NCBI GenBank assembly: GCA_030602565.1
Contig: JAUVZL010000029.1
Span: forward strand, 1 to 34,316
Direction of reading: 5' to 3'
Length of the DNA stretch: 34,316 bases
Origin: Candidatus Stahliibacteriota bacterium
GTDB taxonomy: Bacteria; Hydrothermota; Tepidihabitantia; SM23-42
In this document: piece after piece, positions 1,972-26,062 of the stretch
Position numbering within the stretch: position 1 is the first letter of the stretch
Layout of the letters: every line of letters starts with the position of its first letter
Made by a program: the position numbers and the translations under genes
Notes under the pieces: model-generated
The model's database searches: none
What the model saw: the letters and a program-made list of their open reading frames with translations, nothing else
Told to the model about the DNA's origin: nothing

Positions 1972-2319
1972 ATGAATAACAATAAAGATAAAATAAGCAT
2001 AACTAAAGGGAAAGTTAAAAAAATAATTGGTTATTGTAGGGTAAGCACAGATAATCAAAAAGATGAACGCACGATAGAGATACAAGAAAGGGCATTAAGC
2101 GAATATGCAAAAGCGAATAAGTATGACTTGGTTGAGATTTTCAAAGACGAGGGCGTAAGCGGAGGCCTTGAAAATAGACCAGCATTAGTGGAGCTTTTTG
2201 ATTATATTGAGGGTCACAAGGATATTTATGGAGTGCTGATTTATAAATTAGATATTTTTTATACATTATGTCGTCTATTATTCCAAAATGGGACAAAAAG
2301 CGGCATAGTTCGTCTATGA
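1972..2319 (+). pseudogene. Serine recombinase (resolvase/invertase), N-terminal remnant
   Basis: Residues 22-95 match the catalytic domain of serine recombinases: the YCRVSTDNQ segment with the catalytic serine, then EIFKDEGVSGGLENRPAL and GVLIYKLD. The family normally continues with an RLARD-type motif and a DNA-binding C-terminus. Here the match stops at KLD (about base 2255) and the frame ends 21 residues later after unrelated sequence. Intact members are roughly 180-550 aa, so this 115-aa product lacks the rest of the catalytic core and all DNA-binding parts. It is probably a dead remnant of a mobile element, still downstream of a strong promoter. The integron-type cassette begins 6 bp after its stop codon. 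Confidence 0.75.
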
Positions 2320-2361
2320 ACAAGTTAGGCGGAATTTACACGAAAACGAGGTGATGTAATA

Positions 2362-2604
2362 ATGGAGAGAGAAAAAGAAGTCATCAGAACCATTTATTAT
2401 AAAGATGTTGCCAATTTTTTCGAATCAATAGGATCATCTGGGGAATTAGCGCGAGGTGAGATTCGCTGTAGTATCTGTGGGGAGATAATCACTCCTAACA
2501 ACTTTAGAGCAGTTGTCCGCAAATCAGAGAATTTACTGTTTTGCTGTGACAAGGAATCGTGTATTCATGAACTTGTTTCACATTTAAGGGGTGATAAAGC
2601 ATGA
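2362..2604 (+). CDS. Small cysteine-rich zinc-binding-like protein of the cassette
   Basis: 80 aa, family not recognised. A CxxC pair (C36, C39) followed by C61, C62, C67, H69 and H74 suggests a small zinc-binding fold; the N-terminal 30 residues look helical. A GAGGTGA ribosome binding site at 2350-2356 supports the ATG at 2362. It overlaps the following gene by 4 bp (ATGA), so the two are translationally coupled and probably act together. It may be an adaptor or regulator of the membrane protein encoded next, but that is inferred from gene order only. Confidence 0.6.
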   Translation: MEREKEVIRTIYYKDVANFFESIGSSGELARGEIRCSICGEIITPNNFRAVVRKSENLLFCCDKESCIHELVSHLRGDKA

Positions 2605-3704
2605 TATCATATTTGGCAACATGCATCGAGTTAATATACAAATATAGGGCATGGGGAGTTCTCTTAATTTTTATTGGAATTTTTTATTATCTACTAAGAG
2701 TCATACTTGATGAGGATCGTAGCGCAGCTTGGCGTGCTCGCATTTACAAGGCAGTATACAAAATATCTGGAAAGAGCGAAGCGGAGAAAAAATATATAGA
2801 AAATGACATTAGCAGTCGTATCAATCTTTCCCGTCATAACATGCCTTTTGGGAAAGAATACTTGCCTAAGGCTATAAAAGTAGAGTGGTTTAAGGGCATG
2901 GAAGGGGGAACAGCACAAATCAAAGAAAATGAGATAATTGTGCGTCTGGATTCAGCGGAGTCGCAGGAAAAGAATACAGTACTGCTTGCCGGTGCTTTGG
3001 TTAAACGAACCTCTCTTACCGGAATAAGACATATCCTAAAGGAGCCTCTGGAGCTTTCAATGGACTTAAATCTTATTAAAAACTTGCTTACAGAAATCGG
3101 AGATAGAAGGGTATTGGATTGGTTTTTCCGCAACGAATATCAGCCTAATGTAAATAAATCGGAAGAGATAAAAGAATGGAATGGTAAAATCGTTGAAATT
3201 GATGAAAAAGGACTCTTTACGAGACTTTTACTTGTGGAACTTGACGATTATTCTAAAAGGATAATTGGGAAACCTGGTTCTTCAAAAATGTTCCATGAGA
3301 TAGCGGAATTAGTTGATTTTCTTTACAGGATGTCAACAAAAGCTTATGCCCAAGAGGTACCTTTAGATCTTATAACACAAAACATAAAAATCGGCATTAT
3401 ACTTGTGGGAGAAACAAGCAAGATTCTTTCTGGAATAGAAAACTACCTAACGGCATTCGCATATAATATAGAGAAACAGCTCACCTCAATATATGTAATC
3501 ATCTGGGATAAGGAGTTTTTGGGTAATGTTGACCCGGAAGCTCATAAAAAGTTTGTTGAAATGACTGAAGGTTTAGATAGAGGTATACAAAAAACTTTCC
3601 GAGTTCCTAGGGACTTTGAACTTAAATATACCTGTACCGATCACGAAGGAAACAAACGAAAAGCAAAAATTTCCCATTACATTCCTGAATATGTATCCCT
3701 GTAA
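2601..3704 (+). CDS. Membrane-anchored cassette protein of unknown function
   Basis: 367 aa, family not recognised with confidence. One hydrophobic segment (about residues 13-36, WGVLLIFIGIFYYLLRVIL) anchors it, followed by a charged soluble domain of about 320 residues. Visible blocks are KAIKVEWFKGMEGG, EIIVRLDSAESQEKN, LFTRLLLVELDDYSKR and NIKIGIILVGETSKIL. No Walker, nuclease HNH or protease motif was seen. Translation is coupled to the cysteine-rich gene upstream through ATGA. The stop lies 5 bp before the attC-like site, a typical cassette arrangement. A phage-defence or stress role is possible for a cassette gene, but nothing in the sequence proves it. Confidence 0.7.
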   Translation: MISYLATCIELIYKYRAWGVLLIFIGIFYYLLRVILDEDRSAAWRARIYKAVYKISGKSEAEKKYIENDISSRINLSRHNMPFGKEYLPKAIKVEWFKGMEGGTAQIKENEIIVRLDSAESQEKNTVLLAGALVKRTSLTGIRHILKEPLELSMDLNLIKNLLTEIGDRRVLDWFFRNEYQPNVNKSEEIKEWNGKIVEIDEKGLFTRLLLVELDDYSKRIIGKPGSSKMFHEIAELVDFLYRMSTKAYAQEVPLDLITQNIKIGIILVGETSKILSGIENYLTAFAYNIEKQLTSIYVIIWDKEFLGNVDPEAHKKFVEMTEGLDRGIQKTFRVPRDFELKYTCTDHEGNKRKAKISHYIPEYVSL

Positions 3705-3709
3705 ACTTC

Positions 3710-3804
3710 GCCTAACACAGCATATACGCTGCGGGCTGACGCCCTTGCCCTCCGGGACATCGCTCCCTTCGGTCGCAACATTGTATATGCTGGAAACGTT
3801 ATTT
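3710..3804 (+). other. attC-like recombination site of the cassette
   Basis: An R''-type box GCCTAAC (3710-3716) is followed by CAGCATATAC (3718-3727), which has a perfect inverted partner GTATATGCTG at 3783-3792. Between them are nested GC-rich arms (GGGC/GCCC, CCGGG, CCCTTCGGTCGC). The site closes with AAACGTTA (3794-3801). Length and layout fit attC sites that fold as a single strand for the integron integrase. The R' box reads GTTATTT, which departs from GTTRRRY, as would happen if the right flank came from a non-attC target. Confidence 0.7.
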
Positions 3805-3829: not shown

Positions 3830-4048
3830 ATGCCCAAAATAAAAAATACAGATATTATTGAAATAGACGAAATGAAGCTCTATTCAGTCAAGGCGTTATG
3901 CGATATCCTCAAAGTCCATCCTCTAACGATAAGAACTCACATCAAAAAGGGCAGACTGAAAGCAAGACAGATAGGCAGACGTTATTATATCACCGATGAG
4001 CACCTTAAGGAATGGTTGAGTCAGCACGCACCGAAAGGAGTTAAATAA
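3830..4048 (+). CDS. Excisionase-family (HTH_17/MerR-like) DNA-binding protein
   Basis: 72 aa. YSVKALCDILKVHPLTIRTH followed by IKKGRLKARQIGRRYYITDE is the classic layout of the small winged-helix proteins of the excisionase/HTH_17 family: helix-turn-helix, then a basic wing. Such proteins direct excision or regulate mobile elements. A strong AGGAGG sits 9 bp before the ATG. The gene starts just after the cassette end and may belong to the element into which the cassette inserted. The partner recombinase is not visible apart from the truncated serine recombinase upstream. Confidence 0.8.
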   Translation: MPKIKNTDIIEIDEMKLYSVKALCDILKVHPLTIRTHIKKGRLKARQIGRRYYITDEHLKEWLSQHAPKGVK

Positions 4049-5109: not shown

Positions 5110-7751
5110 AACAAAAGCACCTTATAATGATTGTAGGGATAACCCTTGGGCTTCTGTCCGTCACAATGTCAAATGCCCAGTGGCTTGAGACCACAATCTA
5201 TCTTCCCGATTCACTTGGTGGTGTCGGATTGCCGTGGGCCGCCGAATATAACCCCACCAATAATAAGATATATATCGGGGGTGAAAATGGAAGGGATGTG
5301 GTAGTGATTGATGGTGCGACCAATATGAAGATTGCCCGGATTCCTGCTGGTAAGTGGGTTCGCGCCCTTTGTTACAATTCTACCAATAACAAGATCTACG
5401 CCGCTAGTTTTTATGACGATAATTTAACGGTGATTGACGGTGCAAGTGATACCGTGATTACCACAATCTCTGTTGGCAACGGGCCTGATGCTTTGGTTTA
5501 CAATTCAACCAACAACAAGATCTATTGCACTAATCATTACGACGACAATGTGATGGTGATTGACGGTGCGACCGATGCCGTGATTACCACCATACCTGCG
5601 GGTGACCAACCTTATACCCTTGCGTATAATACTACCAATAACAAGATCTATTGCGCTAATAGATCAGACGATAATGTAACGGTGATTGATGGTGCAAGCA
5701 ATTCGGTGATTACCACCATACCTGTGGGTAATTCACCTCGGGCTTTACTCTACTACCCCGAAAAAAACAAGATCTACTGCGCAAATTATTCGAACAATAC
5801 TGTTACAGTGATAAATGGTACCACCAATGCAGTGATTACCACAATAGCCGTAGGTGGTCGCCCTTGCGCCTTCTGCTATAATCTAGACTCTAATTGGGTC
5901 TACGTTGCTAATTACGGATACGGCACTGTCTCAGTGATTAATGGTACCACCAATACAGTGATTACCAACATATTTATACCTGGTTTCCCTGGTGCCTTAG
6001 TCTATAATTCTTATCACAACAAAGTCTACACCGCCAATTTTCATGACGATAATGTTACGATTATCAATGGTGCGACCAATGCCGTGATTACCACAATCAG
6101 TGTTGGCAATGGGCCTGGGGGTGGGCCAGGCAATGACAATCTTCTTCTATACAATCCGTACAATTACGATGTCTACTGCGGTAATTTTTATAGCCATGAT
6201 GTTACAGTAATTAATGGTACAACAAATAACGTGATTACCACAATTGTCCTGGGGGCTGATCCTTATGTCCTTGGCTATAATCCCACCAGAAACACGGTCT
6301 ACTGTGTTAATAACTATGCGGATAATGTGATGGTGGTTGATGGTGAAAGCAATTCGGTGATTACCACAATCGGAGTAGGCGACGCTCCTTGTGACCTTTG
6401 CTATAATTCTACCAATGATAAGATCTACTCCGCTAATCATGACGATGGAAATATGACAGTGATTAATGGTGAGACCAATGCCGTGATTACCACAGTCGAT
6501 CTTGGTGGTAGTTCTGTTCCACATGCGCTTTGTTATAATTCTACCAATAACAAGATCTACTGCGCTGATGGGGATGTTAGGATAATTGATGGTGCCACCG
6601 ATATTGTGATTGGTTCAGTTAATACATCGCATACTTCTCGTGCCCTTTGCTACAATTCCGAGAATAACAAGGTCTACTCCGCTGATTATAGTACTATTTT
6701 GGGCAATACTGTTACAGTGATTGATGGTGAGACCAATGCCGTGATTACGACCATTGCTTTTGCGCTGGAACAGTATCCGTATCTCCTTTGCTACAATGCG
6801 ACCAGCAACAAGGTCTACTGTGTTAATAACTATGCGGATAATGTTACGGTGATTGATGGTGCAAGCAATTCGGTGATTACCACCATACCTGTGGGTAATT
6901 CACCTCAAGCCTTACTCTATAACTCCACCAATAACAAGGTCTACTGTGCTAATAATGGCCCACCTGACTATACTGTTACAGTGATTGATGGTGAGAATGA
7001 TAATGTAATTAAAACCATACCCGTAGGTTATGGTCCCCGTTCTTTTACCTGGAATTCTGTTCAAAATCGAACCTATGTAGCAAATTGGGCGGGTTCAAGT
7101 ATTTCAGTCATTCGTGATACATCAATTGTGAATGTTCCGGTATTTATGGTTACACCCACCAGTATCGATTTTGGTGAGGTATATGTCGATTCAAGCAAAA
7201 TCGACAGCGTCACCGTGACCAATACGGGCAGCGCAATATTGGAGATTACGTCCGTGGAATCAGATAATCCCGAATTCGCGGTGACACCAACGATGGGTAG
7301 TCTTGCACCAGCAGAAAGTATGCAATTCTACATTACCTTTGCTCCGACCAATTTTGGTCCGGAAACGGGTAATATCGTCTTCACCCATAATGCTGCGACC
7401 TCACCTGATACAGTTATCGTAGCCGGAAACGGAATCGTTGGTATCGAAGAAACAGTGGGTGATGTCATTCCTGTTTTTTATGCTTTAGCCCAGAATTGTC
7501 CCAATCCTTTCAAGACAGAGACTGCGATTTACTACCAGTTACCCCAGCCTGGCGTTGTGACAATTGCGATCTATAACGTATCTGGTCAACGCATAAAGAC
7601 TCTGGTTAACGAATCCAAAGATGCTGGTTACTATACTGTTCGCTGGGATGGTCGAAGCCAGGATAATCAAAGAGTCAGCAATGGAGTATATTTCTGCAGG
7701 ATGATGACTGGTGAATATATCTCTGTGAAGAAGATACTTCTAACACGCTAA
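5103..7751 (+). CDS. Secreted YVTN beta-propeller protein with C-terminal sorting domain
   Basis: 882 aa. A signal peptide (residues 1-25, ending SNAQ) is followed by about fifteen repeats of 39-50 residues. They have the pattern ALxYNSTNNKIYCAN, then DDNVTVIDGATNAVITTI, then PVGxxP, the YVTN/SMP-30-like propeller repeat. Fifteen blades suggest two linked seven- or eight-bladed propellers. Then follow a choice-of-anchor-D/ASPM-SPD-2-Hydin-like Ig domain (TPTSIDFGEVYVDSSKIDS to IVAGNG) and a FlgD-like C-terminal domain with NCPNPFKTETAIYYQLPQ, NVSGQRIKTLV, GYYTVRWDGR and GVYFCRMMTG. That last domain is the type A sorting signal of type IX secretion. An AGGAGGTGA at 5091-5099 fixes the start. 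It is probably a surface or released protein; the ligand is unknown. Confidence 0.85.
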   Translation: MLKQKHLIMIVGITLGLLSVTMSNAQWLETTIYLPDSLGGVGLPWAAEYNPTNNKIYIGGENGRDVVVIDGATNMKIARIPAGKWVRALCYNSTNNKIYAASFYDDNLTVIDGASDTVITTISVGNGPDALVYNSTNNKIYCTNHYDDNVMVIDGATDAVITTIPAGDQPYTLAYNTTNNKIYCANRSDDNVTVIDGASNSVITTIPVGNSPRALLYYPEKNKIYCANYSNNTVTVINGTTNAVITTIAVGGRPCAFCYNLDSNWVYVANYGYGTVSVINGTTNTVITNIFIPGFPGALVYNSYHNKVYTANFHDDNVTIINGATNAVITTISVGNGPGGGPGNDNLLLYNPYNYDVYCGNFYSHDVTVINGTTNNVITTIVLGADPYVLGYNPTRNTVYCVNNYADNVMVVDGESNSVITTIGVGDAPCDLCYNSTNDKIYSANHDDGNMTVINGETNAVITTVDLGGSSVPHALCYNSTNNKIYCADGDVRIIDGATDIVIGSVNTSHTSRALCYNSENNKVYSADYSTILGNTVTVIDGETNAVITTIAFALEQYPYLLCYNATSNKVYCVNNYADNVTVIDGASNSVITTIPVGNSPQALLYNSTNNKVYCANNGPPDYTVTVIDGENDNVIKTIPVGYGPRSFTWNSVQNRTYVANWAGSSISVIRDTSIVNVPVFMVTPTSIDFGEVYVDSSKIDSVTVTNTGSAILEITSVESDNPEFAVTPTMGSLAPAESMQFYITFAPTNFGPETGNIVFTHNAATSPDTVIVAGNGIVGIEETVGDVIPVFYALAQNCPNPFKTETAIYYQLPQPGVVTIAIYNVSGQRIKTLVNESKDAGYYTVRWDGRSQDNQRVSNGVYFCRMMTGEYISVKKILLTR

Positions 7752-7758
7752 GGATAAT

Positions 7759-7797
7759 GGAGCCGCTGGGGTTCTCCAAAAGGATTTCAGCGGCTCC
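7759..7797 (+). terminator. Stem-loop after the propeller gene
   Basis: GGAGCCGCTG (7759-7768) and CAGCGGCTCC (7788-7797) form a perfect 10-bp stem with a 19-nt loop, 8 bp after the stop. There is no T-run, so it may stabilise the mRNA end or act as a weak terminator. Confidence 0.5.
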
Positions 7798-7874
7798 TGT
7801 AATGAAGAACTTTGTGAGGAGAATAGAAATCTTAAAAAGGAGGTGATAATGGGATAGATAAAAAATAGGGTTAA

Positions 7875-8012
7875 GGGATAGACCTGGTTCAGTAGTGCAA
7901 AGATATCCTATCAATAAGTTTAAAGCAAGGAGAAAAAGATGAAGAAAGTGATTGTAGGTGTTATATTGTGTTTATTCTATAGCACCTTTTTGCTTGCACA
8001 AGTACCTGACAC
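7875..8012 (+). repeat. Duplicated leader plus signal-peptide block, copy 2
   Basis: Near-identical to 4690-4829. Differences are a few substitutions and one small indel around TTTAAAGCAAGGAG. It supplies the leader, ribosome binding site and signal peptide of the 977-aa protein. Confidence 0.9.
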
Positions 8013-10872
8013 TGGTACCGTTATCAATGCGATTACTGTACCATATCGGGCTGATGGTCTTGCCTGGGATGGTAATTATCTTTGGTGCGGCACGTATGGC
8101 GTACCCGGTAACATAGACACAATCTATAAATTGGATCCCGTTGATGGAACTATTCTCAAAAAAATAACATGGGAATCGGATTATTATGGGTGCTTTGGAT
8201 TGGCCTTTGATCAGGGCGATCTTTGGGTTATTGATCATTTTATCGGTCCGTATGAGACAGATACGATTTTTCGACTCGATACGATCACCGGAGCAAAGAT
8301 TCATCGGATTCCTGCTCACAAAGAGTACATGGCTGGACTTGCCAACGACGGTACGGATCTGTGGGTTTGTACATACTACGAGCCGAATGGACGAGCATAC
8401 AAGATTCAAAAGTCAGACGGCACGGTTTTGGACAGCATGAACATATACGAACTGCCCCAACCCTGGGGTGCAACCTGGGATGGTGAGTATCTCTGGGTAT
8501 GTAATGATGGTTATTTTGGGGGTTCTCATCGTATATATAAGATCGATGTCGTGTTGAAACAGATAGTTGATTCCCTTGATTCACCGGGTAATGCGCCTCA
8601 TGGTTTAGCATGGGATGGCTCTTATCTCTGGGTACTTGCACGTGGCACTTCGCCCACTGGTTACGTGGCATACCAAATCGATCTTGAGGGTGGTGGTACC
8701 CCTGATATCCAGGTGACACCGTCCAGCTATAACTACGGTGTTGTCCCGTTCGATACGACCTTCTCGTTCTGGCTCAATATTGCCAATGTGGGTGATGGTA
8801 TCCTGACGATAGACACGGCCTTTACTCAAAATTCATTGTTCTATGCTACACCGCTGTCTTTTCCGTTCGACATTGCAGTTGGTGAGGACACGAACATCAC
8901 CGTATTTTTTGACCCCGATACATTCTCGTACAATTCATCCAATCTGCTGATCGTGAGTAATGACCCGGTGAATGAAACGACTTATGTTGCATTGAGCGGA
9001 CACGGTGTGTATCCGGATCCGTATCTTGCTCCGCACGCGGCGAGCTATAATTTCGGCAACGTGCGTGTCGACTGTGTTAAGGATTGGGATCTGCAGATAG
9101 TCAATTGTGGCTATCCGATCTTAGTAATCGACAGCGTTACTTACGAGAATGAACATTTTTTCTCCGGGAGTGTAACATTACCGATGTCTGTCCAATGTCT
9201 CGATACTGTTTACATTCAAATGCTTGCCCGGCCAACTGATTTCGGCACGTACAGCGGTCTTGTTGATATCTATTCGAATGATCCTGCCAGTCCAGAGGTC
9301 ATTTCACTCAGTGCGATCGGGGATACTGCTCTTTCCCAGGCTGGTGCGCTGCTCTGGTCGTATGATTTTCCGGGCAAAGTTGTCTGCGTTGCTGGGATAG
9401 CTGACATAAATGCTGACAGCATCATTGATGTCGCGTGTGAAGTACACCAAATAGGCTTGCCAATAGAAAAGCATCTCAATACATTCTGGGGCAACAGTTC
9501 AGGGCATGGTGTGCTACGGTGGGAATTTGGAGATGATACTACGAAGGGCTCTTGGAGCGATGATTGTCTGATCAGAGGTGATGACTACAATGCTGATGGT
9601 GTGGATGATATGATTCTCGGGACGGCGTGGAATGACCGGTCCGTATACGCACTCGATGGTGTGACAGGTGCGATAATTTGGTACTACGATAGCTACTGGT
9701 TTGATGGCGAGGGTGGTTGGGTTTATACAGTAAAACCGATGCCGGACATTAACGGTGATGATGTTAATGAAGTGCTTGCCGGTATTGGTGGCTCCTCAGG
9801 TGGCAATGCTGGTCCACGCAGCATGTACTGTTTTTCGGGCGTTGACGGCCAGATCATCTGGCGTCTGCAAGCTTTAGATGCTATCGGCAGTGTCAATTGG
9901 ATTCCCGATGTCGATGGTGATGATATTCCTGATGCGATATGCGGCGCCTGGGGCAATGGTTTGGATGAAAAAGTTTACTGTGTGAGCGGTGCGTCCAGTG
10001 GCGTGGTGTATTCACCTCTATGGTCCTATGATTGCGGTGGCGATATCCAATCGGTCATTGCCATTCCCGATCAGAACGGAGACGGCAAATACGATGTTAT
10101 CGCCGGGGCATGGAGCGATTCGGTATTTTGCCTGAGCGGCGTGAATGGTGCAAGATTGTGGGCGAGACATGTTCCGGGTTGGGTCATAAAGGTCGTTGAA
10201 ATAAAAGACTTAATAGCGCCGGGTATACCCGGTATTGCCGTTGCTCATGTCGGTTCATCATTTGAAGTGCTGAATGGCGCAACCGGCGAAGTGCACTGGT
10301 CCTATCCCATTGGAAGTCATGTCTGGACCGTGGATGCGATTGAAGATCTGGACGGTGATGGTAAATGTGATGTCGTGACCGGTAATCAGGATCCGGGGAT
10401 TGTCTATTGTTTCAGCGGTGATGATGGAAGCATAATATGGTCATACAATGAGGGCAGATTGATCAGTTCAATACGCGCGGTCGATGACATAAGTTTTGAC
10501 GGGTATCAGGATGTCATTGTCGGAACACAAGCCCCTTCCGGTCTCGGGCATTTTTTTGCGCTGTGCGGCGGTGTGCCGAACCCGGGGATCGCAGAATACA
10601 AAGACCGTGAAACGCTGGACCTGGTGGTATTTCCGAAAATCGGCAGAACGAATTTCAACATAGTCCTGGGTACCACGAAACTCGACGAGATCTGTATATA
10701 TGATGTTGCCGGAAGATTGATCAAACGTTATAGCAATATCGGCACTGATACAGAACGGATTATCTGGCATGCGGAGGATGAAAATGGATGGGCAGTTGCG
10801 CAGGGCGTCTACTTTGTACACAGTATGGGCAAGGAATTCTCGCGTACCGACAAGATAGTAGTTGTCAGGTAA
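7939..10872 (+). CDS. Large secreted protein: propeller, choice-of-anchor-D and FG-GAP repeats
   Basis: 977 aa. The signal peptide (1-21, ending FLLAQ) is followed to about residue 255 by repeats of the LAWDGxYLW type (GLAWDGNYLWCGTYG, GATWDGEYLWVCNDG, GLAWDGSYLWVLARG), a propeller. Two choice-of-anchor-D domains follow at about 255-465 (TPSSYNYGVVPFDTTFSFWL, HAASYNFGNVRVDC). From about 475 to 880 there are FG-GAP/PQQ-like repeats with calcium-type loops (DINADSIIDVACE, DVDGDDIPDAICG, DQNGDGKYDVIAG, DLDGDGKCDVVTG, RLISSIRAVDD). The C-terminus (YDVAGRLIKRYSN, GVYFVHSMGKEF) is a FlgD-like sorting domain. An AAGGAG upstream of 7939 supports the start. It is likely exported to the cell surface; no enzyme motif was seen. 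Confidence 0.85.
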   Translation: MKKVIVGVILCLFYSTFLLAQVPDTGTVINAITVPYRADGLAWDGNYLWCGTYGVPGNIDTIYKLDPVDGTILKKITWESDYYGCFGLAFDQGDLWVIDHFIGPYETDTIFRLDTITGAKIHRIPAHKEYMAGLANDGTDLWVCTYYEPNGRAYKIQKSDGTVLDSMNIYELPQPWGATWDGEYLWVCNDGYFGGSHRIYKIDVVLKQIVDSLDSPGNAPHGLAWDGSYLWVLARGTSPTGYVAYQIDLEGGGTPDIQVTPSSYNYGVVPFDTTFSFWLNIANVGDGILTIDTAFTQNSLFYATPLSFPFDIAVGEDTNITVFFDPDTFSYNSSNLLIVSNDPVNETTYVALSGHGVYPDPYLAPHAASYNFGNVRVDCVKDWDLQIVNCGYPILVIDSVTYENEHFFSGSVTLPMSVQCLDTVYIQMLARPTDFGTYSGLVDIYSNDPASPEVISLSAIGDTALSQAGALLWSYDFPGKVVCVAGIADINADSIIDVACEVHQIGLPIEKHLNTFWGNSSGHGVLRWEFGDDTTKGSWSDDCLIRGDDYNADGVDDMILGTAWNDRSVYALDGVTGAIIWYYDSYWFDGEGGWVYTVKPMPDINGDDVNEVLAGIGGSSGGNAGPRSMYCFSGVDGQIIWRLQALDAIGSVNWIPDVDGDDIPDAICGAWGNGLDEKVYCVSGASSGVVYSPLWSYDCGGDIQSVIAIPDQNGDGKYDVIAGAWSDSVFCLSGVNGARLWARHVPGWVIKVVEIKDLIAPGIPGIAVAHVGSSFEVLNGATGEVHWSYPIGSHVWTVDAIEDLDGDGKCDVVTGNQDPGIVYCFSGDDGSIIWSYNEGRLISSIRAVDDISFDGYQDVIVGTQAPSGLGHFFALCGGVPNPGIAEYKDRETLDLVVFPKIGRTNFNIVLGTTKLDEICIYDVAGRLIKRYSNIGTDTERIIWHAEDENGWAVAQGVYFVHSMGKEFSRTDKIVVVR

Positions 10873-10902
10873 GGCATGTAGCTGTGATGATATCAAGGAA
10901 TA

Positions 10903-10924
10903 TAGGGCGGCTTTCGCCGCCCTA
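10903..10924 (+). terminator. Stem-loop after the 977-aa secreted gene
   Basis: TAGGGCGGC (10903-10911) and GCCGCCCTA (10916-10924) pair perfectly around a TTTC loop. No T-run follows. It separates the secreted gene from the kinase operon and ends 20 bp before the next start. Confidence 0.5.
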
Positions 10925-10944
10925 CTTCCGACGATGGCGGGAAT

Positions 10945-12132
10945 ATGAAAAGAATCGCCATAATCAACCAAAAGGGAGGTACGGGTAAGACAACCTCAAC
11001 AGTAAACATAGGCTCTGGGCTTAATCGCGAACTCAAGAAAGAAGTAGATAGGATCGCCGCTGAGGAAATTGCCTTGCGCAGATACACTGAAAAAATCATC
11101 AGTAGTGTTCCCAGCGGTGTAATTGCCGTTAGCAACGATGGTACGATCACCACGCTCAACCCTGAGGCAGCAAGAGCCTTAGGCTTAAACAAGGCTCAAA
11201 CAATTGGCAAAGATATAAGGAATATAGAACGTCTTGAAGCACTCTGGAAAAAAATGGAGCAGTCGATTGTTTCAGGATCGATCGTACACAGGGATGAAGT
11301 TTCAATATACAATCAAAAAGGCAAATCAATACCCATTGGTTTCTCCATTTCTCCAATAAGCAGTTTGAAAAACAGAATTACTGGGTGTGTAACGATTTTC
11401 AAAGATCTATCAGAGATAAAATCTCTGCAAGAGAAGTTGAAACACGCAGAAAAACTTTCATATCTGGGCAAAATGGCAAGCTGGGTTGCTCATGAAATCA
11501 GAAACCCCTTGGCTGCAATTGACGGTTTTGCCCATTTGATGGTGGATACCAAAAAACAGGAAAAAATCGCTCTATACAGCGCTGAGATATTCAAGGGTGC
11601 CGAAAGAATAAACAATATTATTGAAGATATCCTTGCCTTTGCCAAAACAAAGAGGGAAAAACCGAAATTGGCAGAAATAGACTTAAGGTCTCTGATTGAC
11701 CATATTCTCAGGGATATAAACATCAAAACCACGATAAAACATGGAAAAGCACCTGTAATTGAAGGAGAAACAGAATCCATAAGAAGAGTATTTATAAATT
11801 TGATAACCAATAGTATTGAAGCCATGGATAAAGATGGTCACCTGAAGATAAAATTCGCCTCAAACAAGAAATGGGTCATTACTGAAATTATTGATAATGG
11901 CGCAGGCATACCAAAGAAAGAACTCAAGGATGTGCTTACACCATTTTTTACAACGAAAGAAAGAGGTACTGGTTTGGGTCTTGCAATTGTCCAGAAAATA
12001 ATTGAAGAGCACAACGGTAAGATTGATATCAAAAGTGAGGAAGGCGTCGGTACAAGAGTACGGGTATTTCTACCGAAAAAGGTTCAAAAAGGGTCAAAAA
12101 AGGCAAGAGAAGGCATAGAAGATCATTTTTAG
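10945..12132 (+). CDS. PAS histidine kinase with a ParA N-terminus fused to it
   Basis: 395 aa. Residues 1-26 (MKRIAIINQKGGTGKTTSTV NIGSGL) are the start of a ParA/Soj ATPase including the deviant Walker A motif KGGTGKTT. The rest of ParA, including the DxDPQ motif, is absent. From about residue 30 the protein is an NtrB-like kinase. It has a PAS domain (RYTEKIISSVPSGVIAVSND to about 155), a HisKA H-box with H183 (VAHEIRNPL), an N-box (N285-N289, NLITN), G1 (DNGAGI 317-322), an F-box (PFFTTK) and G2 (GTGLGL 341-346), so it should autophosphorylate. No membrane segment is present: a cytoplasmic sensor. The first codons and start site evidently came from a parA gene. It leads a plus-strand set of response regulators, its likely partners. 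Whether the P-loop has any function is unknown. Confidence 0.85.
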   Translation: MKRIAIINQKGGTGKTTSTVNIGSGLNRELKKEVDRIAAEEIALRRYTEKIISSVPSGVIAVSNDGTITTLNPEAARALGLNKAQTIGKDIRNIERLEALWKKMEQSIVSGSIVHRDEVSIYNQKGKSIPIGFSISPISSLKNRITGCVTIFKDLSEIKSLQEKLKHAEKLSYLGKMASWVAHEIRNPLAAIDGFAHLMVDTKKQEKIALYSAEIFKGAERINNIIEDILAFAKTKREKPKLAEIDLRSLIDHILRDINIKTTIKHGKAPVIEGETESIRRVFINLITNSIEAMDKDGHLKIKFASNKKWVITEIIDNGAGIPKKELKDVLTPFFTTKERGTGLGLAIVQKIIEEHNGKIDIKSEEGVGTRVRVFLPKKVQKGSKKAREGIEDHF

Positions 12133-12179
12133 GTATTTAGGTGTTTGGGAATTTAAGTATTTGTCCTTAAGGGGGCTTT

Positions 12180-12536
12180 ATGAAAAGAATTTTAGTATGT
12201 GATGATGAGAAATCAATAAGGCTCTTACTCAGTGAAATACTATCTGACTATTATGACGTCGTCACGGCGCCAGACGGCAGAACAGCCATAAACTTAATCG
12301 AAAGCGAAGACTTTGACCTACTCATCATTGATATAAAAATGCCTCACATGCACGGCATAGAGGCGATAGAACGAATACGACAACGAAACCAGGAAATCCC
12401 GATAATATTATGCACTGCATACCGCAAAATGCAGGACGACTTCACAGTCAAAAACTCAGATGTCGCTGCATTTATCACAAAACCGATAGATATCAAAGAG
12501 CTGAAAAACAAGATATTTGAACTGATAGGTGCTTAG
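12180..12536 (+). CDS. Single-domain response regulator (CheY-like receiver)
   Basis: 118 aa, one receiver domain and nothing else. The acidic pair is D8-D9, the phosphoacceptor D51 (LLIIDIKMP), the switch threonine T79 (ILCTAY) and the conserved lysine K101 (ITKPID). AGGGGG lies just upstream of the ATG. It follows the PAS kinase by 47 bp of low-complexity spacer (repeats of TATTTAGG) and overlaps the upstream end of the next gene's region. It may shuttle phosphate from the kinase to the HPt protein encoded on the other strand; that is inference from the neighbourhood. Confidence 0.9.
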   Translation: MKRILVCDDEKSIRLLLSEILSDYYDVVTAPDGRTAINLIESEDFDLLIIDIKMPHMHGIEAIERIRQRNQEIPIILCTAYRKMQDDFTVKNSDVAAFITKPIDIKELKNKIFELIGA

Positions 12537-12537
12537 A

Positions 12538-13443
12538 ATGAACATAATAGACCTGGATTCGGACAACCGATTTGAGCCTCAACTGAAAGAGGGCACAATT
12601 AAAAACGTGCTTGTTATTGAGGACAATATCGATGAATTCAATATTATGCAAGAAATGCTTACCGAGGCAATAGAATCATCATTTGAATTGATACGCGCTG
12701 ATTGCTTAGAAAGTGGCTTGGAGAAATTATTAGCGGGTAGTATTGATATAGTCTTACTTGACCTTTCCTTACCTGATTGTCAAATACAAAATACGTTCAG
12801 CAAGCTATACGAGCAAACCCCTGATGTACCGATCATTGTTATGGCTTTGCCAGAAGAAGAATCGCTGGCTGTAAGAGCAACACAATTAGGTGCGGAAGAC
12901 TATATTATTAAGGGTAAAACAGACAGCTTACAACTTAGACATTTAATCAAATATGCTGTCGAGCAACATGAGATACAGCATGAACTCAGCAATCTTGCAC
13001 TCATTGACAAAGTCACTGGTTTGTACAGCCGACAGGCATTTCTTGTCTTGGGACAACACTACCTGAAATTGGCAAATCGTGCTAATAAGGGGATGATATT
13101 CTTCATGCTCAACATTGAGAACCTGAAGAGTATCTCGGATAATTACGATTATAAAGAAAAAGAAAATGCTTTAGTTGATACTGCCAAGATTCTAAAACAG
13201 TCCTTTCGCAGGTCGGACATTATAGCCCGCTATGCAGAAGATTCATTTGCCATTATTGCTCTGGAGGCACGCGAAGACAGTGACAAAATACTAATCAACC
13301 GCTTGCATCAAAATCTCAACGCCCACAAGTTAAAAAGCAAGAAAGCATATACATTAGCTTTGAATATCGGCACAACATACTATGACCCTAAATCCCCGTG
13401 CTCAATTGCCGAACTCATGGCTCGTGCGTGCAAATCCCTTTAG
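12538..13443 (+). CDS. Receiver protein with degenerate GGDEF domain
   Basis: About 301 aa from ATG 12538, which fits the AGGTG at 12527-12531 better than GTG 12529. Residues 20-140 form a receiver domain (VLVIEDN, phosphoacceptor D75 in VLLDLSLPD, GKTDS near the lysine position). Residues 150-301 follow the GGDEF fold (NLALIDKVTGLYSRQAF). The active-site signature is AEDSF (233-237) where GGDEF or GGEEF is expected, and the metal-site context is LNIENLKSISD. Diguanylate cyclase activity is therefore doubtful, and it may instead sense c-di-GMP or GTP or only bind a partner. The start follows the stop of the lone receiver by a single base, so the two are co-translated. Confidence 0.85.
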   Translation: MNIIDLDSDNRFEPQLKEGTIKNVLVIEDNIDEFNIMQEMLTEAIESSFELIRADCLESGLEKLLAGSIDIVLLDLSLPDCQIQNTFSKLYEQTPDVPIIVMALPEEESLAVRATQLGAEDYIIKGKTDSLQLRHLIKYAVEQHEIQHELSNLALIDKVTGLYSRQAFLVLGQHYLKLANRANKGMIFFMLNIENLKSISDNYDYKEKENALVDTAKILKQSFRRSDIIARYAEDSFAIIALEAREDSDKILINRLHQNLNAHKLKSKKAYTLALNIGTTYYDPKSPCSIAELMARACKSL

Positions 13444-13452
13444 GTGTATTAT

Positions 13453-15336
13453 ATGAAAAAAGGGAAAAACAAACCTGTATGTTCTCCCACAATCCTCATT
13501 GTCGAAGACGAAATGATTGTCGCAAAAGACATTGAAAGAACCTTGATGAATTTGGGTTATCAGGTTTCCTCAACTGTATCATCTGGCAAACAAGTAATCA
13601 AAAAAGCAAAGACGGATAAGCCGGATTTGATTCTGATGGATATCGTGCTGAGGGGTGAAATGAATGGCATTGAAGCTGCAGAGCAAATACACACGCGTCT
13701 CAATATTCCTGTAGTGTATCTTACTGCTTATGCAGATAAAAAAACATTGCAGCGCGCAAAGATAACAGAGCCATATGGGTATATTCTTAAACCATTTAGT
13801 GAAAGAGAATTACACTCAACTATAGAGATAGCTCTTCATGAGTGCCAGATGGAAAAGAAGATAAAACACCTCAGTGATGTACTGTGCGCAATCAGAAATG
13901 TTAATCAACTCATCACAAAAGAAAAGAACCGCGATAAATTGCTTAAAGGCATCTGCAAGAAACTCACTGAGACTCGCGGCTACTCTAGCACCTGGATCGC
14001 AGTCATAGACGAATCTGGTAAACCATCAGCTTATGCTGAAACCGGTGTTGGCAGGAATTTTTCACACCTAATCGAATCTCTCAAACAAGGAAACCCACCC
14101 AAATGTTGGAAAAAAATACTGTCAAAACCAGGTGTAGTGGTAATAGAAGACACATCCAAAATCTGTGCTGAATGTCCTTTAGCGCGCAAAAATAGTGGCA
14201 ACAGAATCTTGAGCGCCCGGCTGGAATCCAATAACAAAGTTCACGGTTTGATAATAGTATCCACCGCCGATAATTTCCCCATAGATAAGGATGAGTTGTC
14301 ACTTCTCAATGAAATCGCAGGCGATGTTGGACTTGCACTTCACACCATAAAAATAGGCGAGGAACGAAAACAAGCGTTGAAGCAACTGGAAGAAAGCGAA
14401 GCACGGCTACGGACTATCATAAGCAAAAATGCCGACAGTATAATTATTGTAGATGGAAATGGTATCGTGCGTTTTATCAATCCTGCTGCCGAAAAATTAT
14501 TCGGTTTTGGTAAGAAAAAGATGGTGGGTGAATTGTTTGGGTTTCCGGTCGTCGTTGGTGAAACGACAGAAATTGAAATCATACAAAAAGGAAGAAAAAC
14601 AACTGTAGCGGAAATGCGCATGGTTGGCATAAAGTGGCAGGGAAAGGCTGTACACCTTGCATCGCTACGGGACATCACCGAGCACAAACAGACTGAGCAA
14701 GCCTTGCAGCTAAGTCTTGAGAGATCACAAAGGATCCTGCAAGAAACTGTAAGTGCCTTAGCAATAGCCCTTGAAAAGAGGGACCCATATACAGCAGGAC
14801 ATTCACTGCGCGTAGCGCAGCTCACATTTGAAATAGCCACACAATTAGGGTTTTCAGAGAAACAAATTAGGGGTGTCCATATGGCTGCCTCTATTCATGA
14901 TATCGGAAAGATATACGTTCCTGCTGAGATTCTCAGTAAACCCAATAAATTAACTGAAGGCGAATTTATGCTAATTAAAAGCCATTGTCAGGTTGGTTAT
15001 GATATATTGAAAAATATAGAATTCCCCTGGCCAATTGCAAAGATTGTTCTGCAACATCATGAAAGAATAGATGGTTCTGGTTATCCAATGGGTCTGAAGG
15101 ACAAAAAGATATTGCATGAAGCAAAGATATTGGGTGTCGCCGACGTGGTAGAAGCAATGTGCTCACACCGACCATATAGGCCTGCACCAGGTATAGATAA
15201 AGCATTAGAAGAAATTTTACAAAATAAGGGCGTTCTGTACAATCCAGACGTGGTAGATGCCTGTTTTTATTTATTTAAAGGAAAAGGTTTCACATTTGGT
15301 CCCATAAGTAGGTTTCCTTTTTTAGACAAATCTTAA
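13453..15336 (+). CDS. Receiver-GAF-PAS-HD-GYP response regulator (c-di-GMP phosphodiesterase)
   Basis: About 627 aa from ATG 13453; GTG 13444 directly after the previous stop is the alternative. Numbering from the GTG: receiver 15-130 (EDE 21-23, D66 in LILMDIVL, K116 in LKPF), GAF-like 145-305, PAS 318-415 (NADSIIIVDGNGIVRFINPA), then HD-GYP 430-615 with HDIGK (485-489), H514, HH (538-539) and DGSGYP (542-547). HD-GYP enzymes hydrolyse cyclic di-GMP, and all the metal ligands I can judge are present, so it should be active. It closes the plus-strand signalling cluster. Its stop lies 27 bp from the end of the convergent pilus ATPase gene, whose product carries an MshEN-like domain. Confidence 0.9.
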   Translation: MKKGKNKPVCSPTILIVEDEMIVAKDIERTLMNLGYQVSSTVSSGKQVIKKAKTDKPDLILMDIVLRGEMNGIEAAEQIHTRLNIPVVYLTAYADKKTLQRAKITEPYGYILKPFSERELHSTIEIALHECQMEKKIKHLSDVLCAIRNVNQLITKEKNRDKLLKGICKKLTETRGYSSTWIAVIDESGKPSAYAETGVGRNFSHLIESLKQGNPPKCWKKILSKPGVVVIEDTSKICAECPLARKNSGNRILSARLESNNKVHGLIIVSTADNFPIDKDELSLLNEIAGDVGLALHTIKIGEERKQALKQLEESEARLRTIISKNADSIIIVDGNGIVRFINPAAEKLFGFGKKKMVGELFGFPVVVGETTEIEIIQKGRKTTVAEMRMVGIKWQGKAVHLASLRDITEHKQTEQALQLSLERSQRILQETVSALAIALEKRDPYTAGHSLRVAQLTFEIATQLGFSEKQIRGVHMAASIHDIGKIYVPAEILSKPNKLTEGEFMLIKSHCQVGYDILKNIEFPWPIAKIVLQHHERIDGSGYPMGLKDKKILHEAKILGVADVVEAMCSHRPYRPAPGIDKALEEILQNKGVLYNPDVVDACFYLFKGKGFTFGPISRFPFLDKS

Positions 15337-15363
15337 AAAAGTTGGGTAAACTTTGTTCACTAT

Positions 15364-17508
15364 TCAAGATTTGACCCCCAGAAGTTCCATATCCTCTGCC
15401 AGGACATTCTGATAAACGTCCTCTGGAGCACAAATAAGGCCTTTCACTTTTTCAATGGCGTGATTGCTGATTAGATATATACCCTTTTTTTGGAAGAACT
15501 TCCTGATTTCCACAATAGATTTGCCTGAACGAACCATACGGGCAATACTGGGATCGAATTTCAAAACTTCATATAGACCTTCGCGTCCAAAATACCCGGT
15601 ATTATGGCACTTTGCACAGCCGACTGGATGGGCAACCCGCGCCGGAATATCATCAGTAAAAGGCATGAACATATTCCGTTCATTCGAAGAAATCTCCATT
15701 ACTTTCTTGCAGCATGAGCAAAGTTTCTTGACCAATCTTTGCGCAACTACACAGAGAACTGCATCTGCCATAACGCCGCACCCAATGCCCAATCTTTCAA
15801 GGCGGAAAACAGCTGTCGTCGTATCAGTTGTGTGCAGCGTTGTTAAAGTGAGGTGGCCTGTACTTGCAAAATCCATTGCCATTTTTGCAGAATATTGGTC
15901 TCTGATTTCGCCAAGAAAGATCACATCCGGATCCAATCTCACCACAGATTTGAGTAACGCCTCAAATGTTATACCGGCTTTTTCATTTACCTGCTGCTGA
16001 TTTGCAAAAGGCATAAGATATTCAACCGGGTCTTCAATTGTCACGAGATTTCGCACCTGGCAATTTATGTGTGAGAGTAAGCTATAGATCGTTGTGGTCT
16101 TACCAGACCCTGTTGGTCCAACAACCAAAATCAGACCATGTGTTCGATTGATGACGTCCATCATTGTATCAGCCTGTTCATCAGTCATCCCAAGCTCGTT
16201 CAGTTTTTTTGGTTTGGCATACGGCTGCAACATTCTTATTACGATATTCTCACCCTCTGGTGTTGATGCAGTAGCTAAACGAAGTTTATAATTCTTGTCG
16301 TCAATCACCGCCTCCAATGTACCATCCTGAGGTCTTCGTCGTTCCGCTATATCCATACCGCTAATTGCCTTGAAGCGACCTATTAACATGAAGCCTATTT
16401 TCTTTTCCAGAATAAACATATTTCTCATATCACCATCTATTCTAAAACGAATAATGCAATCGTTTTTCTTTAGCTCAATGTGTATGTCACTTGCTCTTTC
16501 TGATGCAGCCGCGAATAGTAGTTTGTTTGCAATGCCAGAAGTCGATTGACCTTCAGTACCCAGATTGTAAGACGGGGCAGTAGTTTTTGGATCAACCGGC
16601 TCAGCGAGCCCCTCTACTGTATTGATGCTGAAATCCTGGGATCGTACTGTATCATCTTCGCCTTGATCAGTATGTAATATTGATTCAATACTGGCAGGAG
16701 GAGTAACCACGAGCTTCAATCCTTTGTCTTGTGAATAGAATTTCTCCAAAATATCAATGACTTCCAGATTAAAGGGGTTGCTCAATATAAAGGCACATTT
16801 TCTATCTTTTTGCTTTAATGCCACAATAAGATTCGATTTACAGAACGTCACGGGAAGTATGCCCAGCTCAACATCCTCTGGTTTGATCTTAGGTAAAAAA
16901 GGAAGTTTTAGATAATCAGCGATATACACCGACATCCTTGTATTATCAATGCCGATCCCATATGCTGCTGAATAAAGGCTTGCATGCTCCATGGTATCCA
17001 GTTTATATTGTTGCTCAGGCGATAGATTTAGTTTATCAGATAGAAATTCTTTAAATTGAATGAAATTAGATGAAGTAAGACTGACGTCTGACTTAATCGC
17101 ATCTCCCCGGAAATCTTTCCATCGCAGGGCAGTCTTGAGGTGATAACGAACGTTTTCAAGCAAGATGTCTTTCTTTATGGGTTTAATAAGATAACCAACA
17201 GCGCCGAGGGCAAATGCCTTTGCCCTGTCTTTTTCCTCTTTTAAAGCAGTCACAAATACAACCGGGGTGAAGGCGGTTTCTGATTTTTGCTGGAGTTTGT
17301 AGCAGAAGTCATAACCATCCATTTCCGGCATCATAATGTCAAGCAGAATAAGATCGGGCGTGACGTCTCGGAGTATCTCCAAACCCTTGAGCCCGCTTTC
17401 CGCAATCATAACATCATAACCTTCACCGCTCAATAAACTTTTGGTTAGCTTTAGTATATTGCTGTCGTCGTCGACAACCAGAATAAGTGGCTTAGCTGGA
17501 CTATTCAT
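15364..17508 (-). CDS. Receiver-MshEN-like-GspE/PilB assembly ATPase
   Basis: 714 aa. Residues 1-125 are a receiver (DDD 13-15, D57 in LILLDIMMPEMDG, T87, K109). Residues 145-280 resemble the MshEN/GspE N-terminal domain (YIADYLKLPFLPKIKPEDVE, LSNPFNLEVID), a family in which many members bind c-di-GMP. Residues 325-700 are a type II/IV secretion ATPase with SERASDIHIE, Walker A GPTGSGKT (464-471), Asp box (IEDPVEY 491-497), Walker B LDPDVIFLGEIRD (525-537), His box (GHLTLTTLHTTD) and a zinc tetracysteine (C597/C600, C631/C634). It powers pilus assembly or protein secretion at the inner membrane. An N-terminal receiver on a PilB-type motor is unusual and suggests control by phosphorylation. 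The start overlaps the upstream HPt gene by 8 bp. Confidence 0.9.
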   Translation of the reverse strand: MNSPAKPLILVVDDDSNILKLTKSLLSGEGYDVMIAESGLKGLEILRDVTPDLILLDIMMPEMDGYDFCYKLQQKSETAFTPVVFVTALKEEKDRAKAFALGAVGYLIKPIKKDILLENVRYHLKTALRWKDFRGDAIKSDVSLTSSNFIQFKEFLSDKLNLSPEQQYKLDTMEHASLYSAAYGIGIDNTRMSVYIADYLKLPFLPKIKPEDVELGILPVTFCKSNLIVALKQKDRKCAFILSNPFNLEVIDILEKFYSQDKGLKLVVTPPASIESILHTDQGEDDTVRSQDFSINTVEGLAEPVDPKTTAPSYNLGTEGQSTSGIANKLLFAAASERASDIHIELKKNDCIIRFRIDGDMRNMFILEKKIGFMLIGRFKAISGMDIAERRRPQDGTLEAVIDDKNYKLRLATASTPEGENIVIRMLQPYAKPKKLNELGMTDEQADTMMDVINRTHGLILVVGPTGSGKTTTIYSLLSHINCQVRNLVTIEDPVEYLMPFANQQQVNEKAGITFEALLKSVVRLDPDVIFLGEIRDQYSAKMAMDFASTGHLTLTTLHTTDTTTAVFRLERLGIGCGVMADAVLCVVAQRLVKKLCSCCKKVMEISSNERNMFMPFTDDIPARVAHPVGCAKCHNTGYFGREGLYEVLKFDPSIARMVRSGKSIVEIRKFFQKKGIYLISNHAIEKVKGLICAPEDVYQNVLAEDMELLGVKS

Positions 17509-17818
17509 AAATGACCTCTAATCGTTCAAGATAATCCTTCAACTTATCTGCACACTTCCTTATCTGCTCTTCATTTCTTTCTTGTGTTGCTTGTTCAAGA
17601 AATTCGCCGATTGCACTTATCACATCAAATCCATATGCACCACCAGAACCACTCAAACCATGTCCCAATGTTTCGATCCTCGCAAAATCATGCTTCTCTA
17701 ATAAAACTAAAATTACATCGATTTTGTTGTTGATGTCTACAAGATAACCAGGAATCAGATTTTTTATCTCGGCTAAAGCATACACAATTATTTTATTACC
17801 ATTTTCGTGGTTTGGCAT
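17501..17818 (-). CDS. HPt (histidine phosphotransfer) protein
   Basis: 105 aa, all-helical. The H-box is ARIETLGHGLSGSGGAYGF with H53 the likely phosphorylated histidine; the family consensus is H-x-LKG-x2-x2-G. Such proteins relay phosphate between receivers. The gene overlaps the receiver-PilB gene by 8 bp and is translated just before it, so the receiver on the ATPase is the obvious target. No kinase is encoded on this strand; the PAS kinase at 10945 and its lone receiver are candidates for the input. Confidence 0.85.
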   Translation of the reverse strand: MPNHENGNKIIVYALAEIKNLIPGYLVDINNKIDVILVLLEKHDFARIETLGHGLSGSGGAYGFDVISAIGEFLEQATQERNEEQIRKCADKLKDYLERLEVIYE

Positions 17819-17819
17819 A

Positions 17820-17963
17820 TCAATTTTGAGCTAATTGAGTTAATTCATTCACATACTGTAAAAGCTCATTATATTTCTCTTTGTATTCAGCGAGCGGGAA
17901 CTGTTTGAAACATCTCTTGAATTCACTCTTCACGTCTTCATCTTGCTCTACCAGGATAATCAC
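17820..17963 (-). CDS. Small ORF resembling a shortened receiver start, 47 aa
   Basis: GTG at 17963 opens a 47-residue frame that stops 1 bp before the HPt start. The first part (VIILVEQDEDVKSEFKRCF) resembles the beta1-alpha1 part of a receiver domain; the second (EYKEKYNELLQYVNELTQL) is a coiled-coil-like helix. The middle of a receiver, including the phosphoacceptor, is missing. No clear ribosome binding site was seen. It is probably the collapsed remnant of a receiver gene at the head of the HPt/PilB operon, or a small helper peptide. Confidence 0.35.
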   Translation of the reverse strand: MIILVEQDEDVKSEFKRCFKQFPLAEYKEKYNELLQYVNELTQLAQN

Positions 17964-18034
17964 ATATAATTATTAGGTAAAATTAATGAGGCAACAACTA
18001 ACAACAATACGTATTTAGCTGTAGGTAGATTTGC

Positions 18035-18373
18035 CTAATGTCCTCCGACAACTGTATAACCCTCTGCTCTGAGTCTACGCGCAAGACCCTGCTCAGCGAT
18101 TACTGCTTCATCGTATAACAAGGGGTTAAGGTCTTCATATAGCTCGGGCATCAACCGAATGCCGTATTTCTTTACATATCCACTCGCCTTGTAACCGGCT
18201 TTGTGGTTTTCAAAACGTTTTACTGGGTTGATGCCGGTCATACCAACATACACACATGGTTTTCCAGAATCTCGGCGCGGATTCTCATCCTGCACTTTTC
18301 GAAATTTCCTGATACAGTCTTCCAACAATACCACATAGATACTGTAGTGAACTGATTTCTTCTTATTCGACAT
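18035..18373 (-). CDS. GIY-YIG-like small protein
   Basis: 112 aa. The segment SIYVVLLED ... KPCVYVGMTGINPVKRFENH fits the GIY-YIG nuclease superfamily: the YVGMT element, then an arginine-rich helix, and E93 in AEQGLARRLRAEGY as the possible metal-binding glutamate. The first motif (IYVVLL) departs from GIY and has an inserted strand-loop before YVG. Cytoplasmic, with no other domain. A strong promoter lies at 18448-18477 with a leader of about 68 nt. Function could be DNA nicking or repair; activity is unproven. Confidence 0.55.
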   Translation of the reverse strand: MSNKKKSVHYSIYVVLLEDCIRKFRKVQDENPRRDSGKPCVYVGMTGINPVKRFENHKAGYKASGYVKKYGIRLMPELYEDLNPLLYDEAVIAEQGLARRLRAEGYTVVGGH

Positions 18374-18447
18374 TTCTCTGCATCTCAGTTACCCCCATAC
18401 TCCAGCACCCCTTTTCTCCTAGTCTCCGCCTGATCCATTGTCGACAA

Positions 18448-18477
18448 ATTATATAGCGGTCTGCGTTCTAAAGTCAA
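18448..18477 (-). promoter_or_regulatory. Promoter of the GIY-YIG-like gene
   Basis: On the minus strand, TTGACT (18477-18472), 18-bp spacer, TATAAT (18453-18448). Back to back with the plus-strand promoter 15 bp away. Confidence 0.65.
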
Positions 18478-18491
18478 GCACTTTTTCAAGC

Positions 18492-18519
18492 TTGACATCC
18501 AGGAACAATTGGCTATGAT
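18492..18519 (+). promoter_or_regulatory. Promoter of the 354-aa secreted gene
   Basis: TTGACA (18492-18497), 16-bp spacer, TATGAT (18514-18519). The GAGGAGG ribosome binding site (18525-18531) starts at the expected transcription start, leaving a leader of roughly 10 nt. Confidence 0.65.
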
Positions 18520-18535
18520 ATACTGAGGAGGTTAA

Positions 18536-25467: not shown

Positions 25468-26062
25468 ATATCTCACCAATATCCATATTATATAATGCTG
25501 CGTAGTTTTTTAGTTTTCTCTTCTCCATCCTGGTCACCCGTTTTTTATCAAAACGCTCATTGTCCAGCTGCAATTTCCTTTTACGATAGTTTTTAAAATA
25601 CAAGTAATCGATAAATGCCTTTTCTGGTTCTGCAATAAGGATGCTAAAACCGCGAATTTCCTCCACATAATAACCTGCATATACATCTGGTCTTACGGTT
25701 CGGTACATGAACAAACCATGATTGTTTTTGTATTGTCTAGTGGGTTTTGTACTAATCGAAGTCACGGCCATTGAAACCTCAGGAATTATACTGTAATGAG
25801 ATAAAGCGGTTTCCAGTGAAATATAAGAAGGTTGATACATTTTATTGGCAATATATAGGTCAGGAATATTAAATGCTTTTGGATATACAAGTTCGTACAA
25901 ACCTTTCTTTAAAGAATTAATCCAGCCCTTATGTTTCCATCTATAAATGAGCTTCTTGAGATTCTCATTTGTCTCATCCGGATAAAATAACAACAGATCA
26001 TCAGATGAGAACACAAAAAACTTTTTCGACTCCAAAACCTTATATAAATCCCTGAACTTCAT
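25454..26062 (-). CDS. abiEi: AbiEi-type antitoxin (winged-helix regulator)
   Basis: 202 aa from ATG 26062. The N-terminal winged helix (FRDLYKVLESKKFFVFSSDD, KGWINSLKKGLYEL) is followed by the AbiEi C-terminal domain (YQPSYISLETALSHYSIIPE, SILIAEPEKAFIDYLYFKNY). In the family it binds DNA upstream to autoregulate and counteracts AbiEii. The longer frame to GTG 26110 is rejected because it would start upstream of the transcription start predicted from the promoter at 26100-26127. An AAAGGGG-like ribosome binding site lies about 9 bp before ATG 26062. Confidence 0.85.
   Translation of the reverse strand: MKFRDLYKVLESKKFFVFSSDDLLLFYPDETNENLKKLIYRWKHKGWINSLKKGLYELVYPKAFNIPDLYIANKMYQPSYISLETALSHYSIIPEVSMAVTSISTKPTRQYKNNHGLFMYRTVRPDVYAGYYVEEIRGFSILIAEPEKAFIDYLYFKNYRKRKLQLDNERFDKKRVTRMEKRKLKNYAALYNMDIGEIYANL

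Follow-up and report, generated by a model that had tools for sequence, protein, structure and literature searches.

The DNA analysed here, a 34,316-nt contig from a Candidatus Stahliibacteriota (WOR-3) bacterium that we call the window, raises the question of whether one of its segments, at 2325 to 3798, is an integron-type gene cassette and, if it is, into what kind of site and by what kind of enzyme it was inserted. The segment is bounded by ...AACAAG(2324)|T(2325)TAGGC on the left and ...GGAAACG(3798)|T(3799)TATTT on the right. A preliminary description had noted that the left junction is the exact complement of an R''-type box near the right end, and that a 10-bp inverted repeat frames an attC-like structure there. 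Both features were found again at the same coordinates (Table 1): the R'' box is GCCTAAC, and the inverted repeat consists of CAGCATATAC and GTATATGCTG. When the cassette was folded as a circle, the R''/R' pairing and the 10-bp stem formed, with z values of -2.7 and -3.7 for the two strands. The cassette ends are also complementary to each other over 24 nt (GTTAGGCGGAATTTACA... versus ...TGTAAACTTCGCCTAAC), and this end complementarity was best, among all candidates in 5 kb, with the R'' box at 3716. The inner stem plays no part in that comparison, yet it selects the same R'' as the covariance model described next.

The model, R1, was built from 17 attC sites with the window site excluded. Further sites in the source genome had been located first by eye and then by cassette-end complementarity, in arrays on contigs C18 and C67. 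In the training set, the stem pairs covaried at 0.468, whereas shuffled columns gave 0.178 and slid partners no more than 0.129. On the window, R1 gave a single match, which is the attC at the 3' end of the cassette (55.7 bits; E = 3.3e-13 under a rough calibration), whereas a search of Rfam gave no match at E ≤ 1. The segment has complementary R''/R' and L''/L' boxes, G|TT bounds, and a 5' end complementary to R''; movement as a unit was seen in cassettes of relatives and not for this cassette itself. We thus confirmed the earlier proposal of an integron-type cassette in a WOR-3-like genome, and one relative with an integrase-attI-cassette locus, described below, is WOR-3 bacterium UBA6260 (G001).

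Table 1. Features of the cassette locus, in window coordinates
Feature	Position	Strand	Description
Truncated serine recombinase/phage integrase	1972..2319	+	N-terminal ~94 residues, then an unrelated frame; occupies the place of the tyrosine integrase in relatives
Orphan attI	2265..2326	+	Two imperfect palindromic repeats around CCAAAATGGG, end TATGAACAAG|TT; crossover between 2324 and 2325
Gene cassette	2325..3798	+	1474 bp; G|TT at both ends, 24-nt end complementarity
ORF, 80 aa	2362..2604	+	Small CxxC...CC zinc-ribbon-like protein; ORF call
ORF, 367 aa	2601..3704	+	Hydrophobic N-terminus, second of gene pair; ORF call
attC	3710..3804	+	R'' 3710-3716, L'' 3718-3727, L' 3783-3792, R' 3798-3804; model R1
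Excisionase-like HTH protein, 72 aa (right flank)	3830..4048	+	PF12728, 1.7e-12; TIGR01764 over cut-off; phrog_1840 excisionase, 3.2e-10

The product of the 80-aa ORF had no Pfam match above the cut-off and none in NCBIfam, PADLOC, or PHROG, and searches for the cassette protein in genome and viral collections, PADLOC, and PHROGs gave no match either. Three other WOR-3 genomes encode distant homologues of the 367-aa protein (E = 7.5e-13 to 9.4e-9), each preceded by a small CxxC ORF or C-terminus. In other WOR-3 genomes (L142, L143, and L144), a module of a CxxC zinc-ribbon protein and a 357- to 395-aa protein with a hydrophobic N-terminus occurs outside cassettes; at L142, the zinc-ribbon part is the C-terminal portion of a longer ORF. 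No attC was found in the short stretches fetched around the homologues. As for the flanks, the serine recombinase fragment matched PF00239 over profile positions 1 to 74 of 145 (2e-16) and the integrase family phrog_95 over 81 to 166 of 651 (2.9e-21). With a truncated phage-type serine integrase on one side and an excisionase-like gene on the other, the unit sits in degraded phage-like DNA. Elsewhere in the window are a DDE transposase (PF01609; 120-1625), upstream of the attI and adjoining a GTCTGCC/GGCAGAC-type repeat, and an AbiEii nucleotidyltransferase of type IV toxin-antitoxin systems (24670-25479; PF08843, 1e-13).

The left boundary turned out to be more than a GTT. An attI profile (nhmmer) made from 12 integrase-adjacent sites, all of them from genomes other than the source genome, matched the 62 bp that end at this boundary with E = 2.2e-8 and 32.1 bits, compared to a best score of 9.9 bits on 60 shuffled windows. 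The sequence preceding G(2324)|TT also resembles the start of several other cassettes. The locus therefore has the attI that an integron platform carries at its first cassette boundary, and, where an adjacent integron integrase gene would be, it has the serine recombinase fragment. Further orphan attI matches lie on contigs C18, C40, C53, C67, C82, and C90 of the same genome.

Nor is the cassette a lone one, as had been proposed, because R1 detected 16 attC sites in the source genome, including a multi-cassette array on C18. Across the 41 genomes searched, the source genome counted and all of them metagenome-assembled (MAGs), 23 had attC. Over the 52 attC matches from all loci, the outer motif is conserved, starting G|TTRRRY-GAAAT and ending ACTTC-RYYYAAC, with a constant A.C mismatch in the pairing. 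Statements about attC shape are descriptive, since the first finder was biased toward perfect or bulge-free stems. R1 gave no match at E ≤ 1 on two class 1 arrays, which means that it is specific to the present attC type and uninformative on class 1 sites. Among the negative controls, the Xer/phage integrase loci L001 to L004 and the non-HARP recombinases L080 and L081, there was no attC at E ≤ 0.1. An integrase elsewhere in the bin had also been envisaged: an intact integron integrase was not found there and no canonical IntI scored over the cut-off, but remnants were present. Contig C82 has a catalytic-domain remnant together with attI, cassette, and attC, and C53 has a 27-residue piece of a HARP-like domain upstream of an orphan attI. 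A REP/Y1-like transposase lies directly upstream of the C82 remnant (L126, 7831-8847).

Intact relatives of the missing enzyme were found in other genomes. Scanning named genomes with the N-terminal domain of the recombinase gave 26 loci, two of which (L112 and L113) look spurious, and HARP-domain loci came from WOR-3/Stahlbacteria, Ratteibacteria, Marinimicrobia, Nitrospirota, Deltaproteobacteria, Atribacteria, Aerophobetes, Omnitrophica, Bacteroidetes, and archaea. A good example is G070, where a tyrosine recombinase gene is followed directly by an attI of the window type and then by two cassettes with attC. The same order was seen in G001, G144, and G143; G145 has the attI-type site, with the sequence 3' of it masked. 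The site downstream of these recombinases has two repeats and ends in AACRAG|TTRRGC or a near variant. It lies just 3' of the integrase stop codon, and the integrase gene is co-directional with the cassettes. R1 matches at integrase loci with E < 1e-4 were all on the + strand and downstream of the recombinase, plus two at G070. An attC was present downstream in 10 of the 10 loci with at least 1.5 kb of downstream sequence (G070, L088, L089, L092, L098, L099, L100, L105, L108, and L109). About 7 of these 10 supplied training sites, and their R1 matches are therefore by construction; the independent ones are L099, L100 (the archaeon Methanolliviera), L101, and the second sites at L088, L098, and L109. 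The linkage of I2-less integrase, attI, and cassettes spans about six bacterial phyla and one archaeon. No HARP integrase was found in viral contigs.

Several of these loci had other features. At L088 (WOR-3 UBA6260; 7004-18936), the integrase is surrounded by ORFs whose sequences read as DNA methyltransferases and restriction-like proteins. Its gene is itself cassette-like in placement, with an attC remnant (9880-9957, E = 0.04) on one side and its own attI on the other; a further attI-like site is found upstream, near 8970. In one Aerophobetes and one Thermoplasmatota MAG, a HARP-like domain is fused to DNA-methylase-like proteins rather than to an integrase (L102, 9947-11545; L107, 9989-11824). 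At L093 and L096, from Deltaproteobacteria and Thermodesulfovibrionia, a HARP-like domain is carried by a canonical IntI that has I2, so that its presence does not mark the I2-less type alone.

The recombinase scored over the cut-off for NF040815. It remained below that for the integron integrase model TIGR02249 (225 of 265 bits), and the match to that model broke into two pieces that leave out the I2 region. Its nearest PDB sequence is VchIntIA (2a3v, 1.7e-43), which is also the nearest fold (2.9e-16) to an AlphaFold model with pLDDT 82 and pTM 0.56. The spacing from the arginine of the catalytic GLR motif to HxxR is 92 in eight HARP integrases and 101 in two, compared to exactly 133 in all six I2-containing IntI checked, including IntI1. 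A spacing of 92 against 133 means that ~41 residues are absent, and in the alignment these form two blocks of 27 and 14. The enzyme is nonetheless a tyrosine recombinase with the R-K-H-R-H-Y set of canonical IntI, and these six residues are invariant across nine I2-less copies; what it does not share with canonical IntI is the I2, or IntI-specific, insert. The N-terminal domain is weakly HARP-like (PF07443 was matched by five of seven members with a best E of 6e-4, the one score shown being below the Pfam cut-off), and a profile search of solved structures with it gave nothing credible. In the tree, IntI and the I2-less proteins together split from Xer at 100/100, the IntI clade has 100/100, and seven I2-less proteins form a clade at 100/99, while all of the HARP-bearing I2-less proteins as a single group have 27/7. 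With Xer as the outgroup, the branching fits a single gain of I2, although a loss is also possible.

Evidence for cassette mobility came from comparison between genomes. A cupin-gene cassette is common to G070 (WOR-3), L092 (labelled Nitrospira), and L111 at 83 to 90% identity; the aligned region begins at GTTA and, in L111, stops at AAC, and in G070 and L092 it extends through the attC. Two cassettes of the C18 array recur in swapped order, with attC sites, in G074, which belongs to a different genus within the family, with identities of 94% and 75%. The homology of the shared cassettes stops at G|TT.

We consider it probable that the window is a relic integron of the I2-less type, with a complete attI, an integrase gene that is gone, and one two-gene cassette captured at the normal G|TT. 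It is just as probable that this type occurs in WOR-3 and several other phyla, and that its integrase, a tyrosine recombinase, belongs to the XerA/IntI branch, has an extra, weakly HARP-like N-terminal domain, and lacks I2. The sites, boundaries, and linkage and the shared and swapped cassettes are observed directly. In integrons in general, the attC that recombines is a folded single strand and the attI is double-stranded DNA, and by its anatomy the I2-less integrase should use its sites likewise. It would pair the attI crossover AACRAG|TT with the attC of a circular cassette, presumably folded as a single strand as in known integrons, and would catalyze the attI × attC exchange. Insertion of the circle would restore G|TT on both sides. 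The window attI would then have lost its integrase gene through a deletion.

Other readings of the left boundary have to be weighed against a relic attI. The bare signature of a stem of at least 10 and matching boxes is expected 0.27 times per Markov-shuffled window, which alone is not beyond chance, and independent tests were needed. Given the match to a model from which this site was held out, and an independent attI match that abuts the other boundary, a chance hairpin with chance repeats can practically be dismissed. The preliminary description had instead suggested capture at a simple GTT site, possibly a secondary one, and in such a reading a canonical integrase would have inserted the cassette. 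A window with a single attC and no adjacent integrase gene would fit this, but the 62-bp left flank matches the profile of integrase-adjacent sites, both palindromic repeats included, and G068 (L071) and G082 (L073) have the same order of orphan attI and attC-bearing cassette, which makes a secondary site very unlikely. It is less far-fetched, though still improbable, that the attI closes an attI-type cassette lying upstream, as its 3' recombination site, and is not the relic of an integrase-attI pair. An attI-like site does end the MNT/HEPN-pair cassette within the C18 array, and DeltaattI-type cassettes are known in class 1 and class 2 integrons (PMC12901181). However, a matching 5' end of such a cassette was not noticed in 1-2264, and pieces of integrase lie upstream of the orphan attI on C53 and C82.

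The identity of the enzyme is a separate matter. The cassettes could be ordinary attC cassettes moved by canonical, I2-containing IntI of other organisms or in trans, with the I2-less recombinase inactive or acting on attI-like double-stranded sites only. Cassette capture reportedly requires the I2 helix (Messier & Roy 2001 and MacDonald 2006, cited in PMC7790495), and because I2 is held to be needed, we infer the attI × attC activity of the I2-less enzyme rather than state it. Furthermore, IntI1 acting in trans is able to insert cassettes that have archaeal attCs (PMC9668308), canonical IntI is also encoded in 4 of 13 other HARP-domain genomes, and many HARP integrase genes are broken (L092, L098, L099, L108, and L109). 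On the other hand, no canonical IntI scored above the cut-off in any of 147 WOR-3 genomes, and 9 of those 13 have none. The attI and cassettes lie directly 3' of the I2-less gene in about six phyla, and the catalytic residues are kept in all nine copies. We therefore doubt that canonical IntI moved these cassettes and retain the I2-less recombinase as the putative cognate enzyme. These systems could well form a separate integron class, a reading that we favor by a little, in which cassettes are captured at attI by a recombinase that has an extra N-terminal domain, lacks the I2 helix, and acts on attC and attI of different build. Such a class may preserve the state from which IntI evolved, with I2 either never acquired or lost.

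A search of the open-access literature found no paper that joins "integron" and "WOR-3" and none connecting insert-less integrases with attI and attC arrays. The ability of integrases to recombine single-stranded attC is credited to the innovation of the I2 helix. For want of intermediates, directed evolution has been used to study how this helix was acquired (PMC7790495). Integrases that naturally lack I2 and are located at attI with attC arrays would supply enzymes for comparison, making the I2 question testable.

The present systems share with chromosomal IntI integrons (class 1; Vibrio VchIntIA, PDB 2a3v) the attI, attC cassettes, G|TT crossover, promiscuous cassette arrays, and integrase fold. 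They differ in that the integrase lacks the ~41-residue I2 insert and has an extra N-terminal domain, and in that attI is 3' of the integrase gene and in the same direction as the cassettes. Their attC may differ too, with a mostly bulge-free inner stem of 11 to 13 bp (from a finder that favored such stems), 1/5-nt spacers, and the outer motif GAAAT/ACTTC. In its account of the integron-like tyrosine recombinase subgroup, PMC8138268 terms the insertion essential for integron function, whereas insert-less members are tied here to attI/attC arrays. As in DeltaattI-type cassettes (PMC12901181), attI is found away from an integrase, but the source genome has many full-length attI copies at scattered positions and no intact integrase among the sequences searched. 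As with CALINs or single attC sites, there are attC cassettes without an integrase gene nearby. A CALIN has at least two attC within less than 4 kb of each other (PMC9668308); the C18 array is one, and the window is not, because it has only one attC, and it also retains an attI. The archaeal integrons are likewise MAG-only, patchy, and mostly CALINs, with attI downstream of intI (PMC9668308). There, IntIs had to match a profile of the IntI-specific domain, so that the present integrases would be missed. Surveys of this kind would score I2-less systems as integrase-free CALINs, and some integrase-less arrays may therefore have a cognate integrase.
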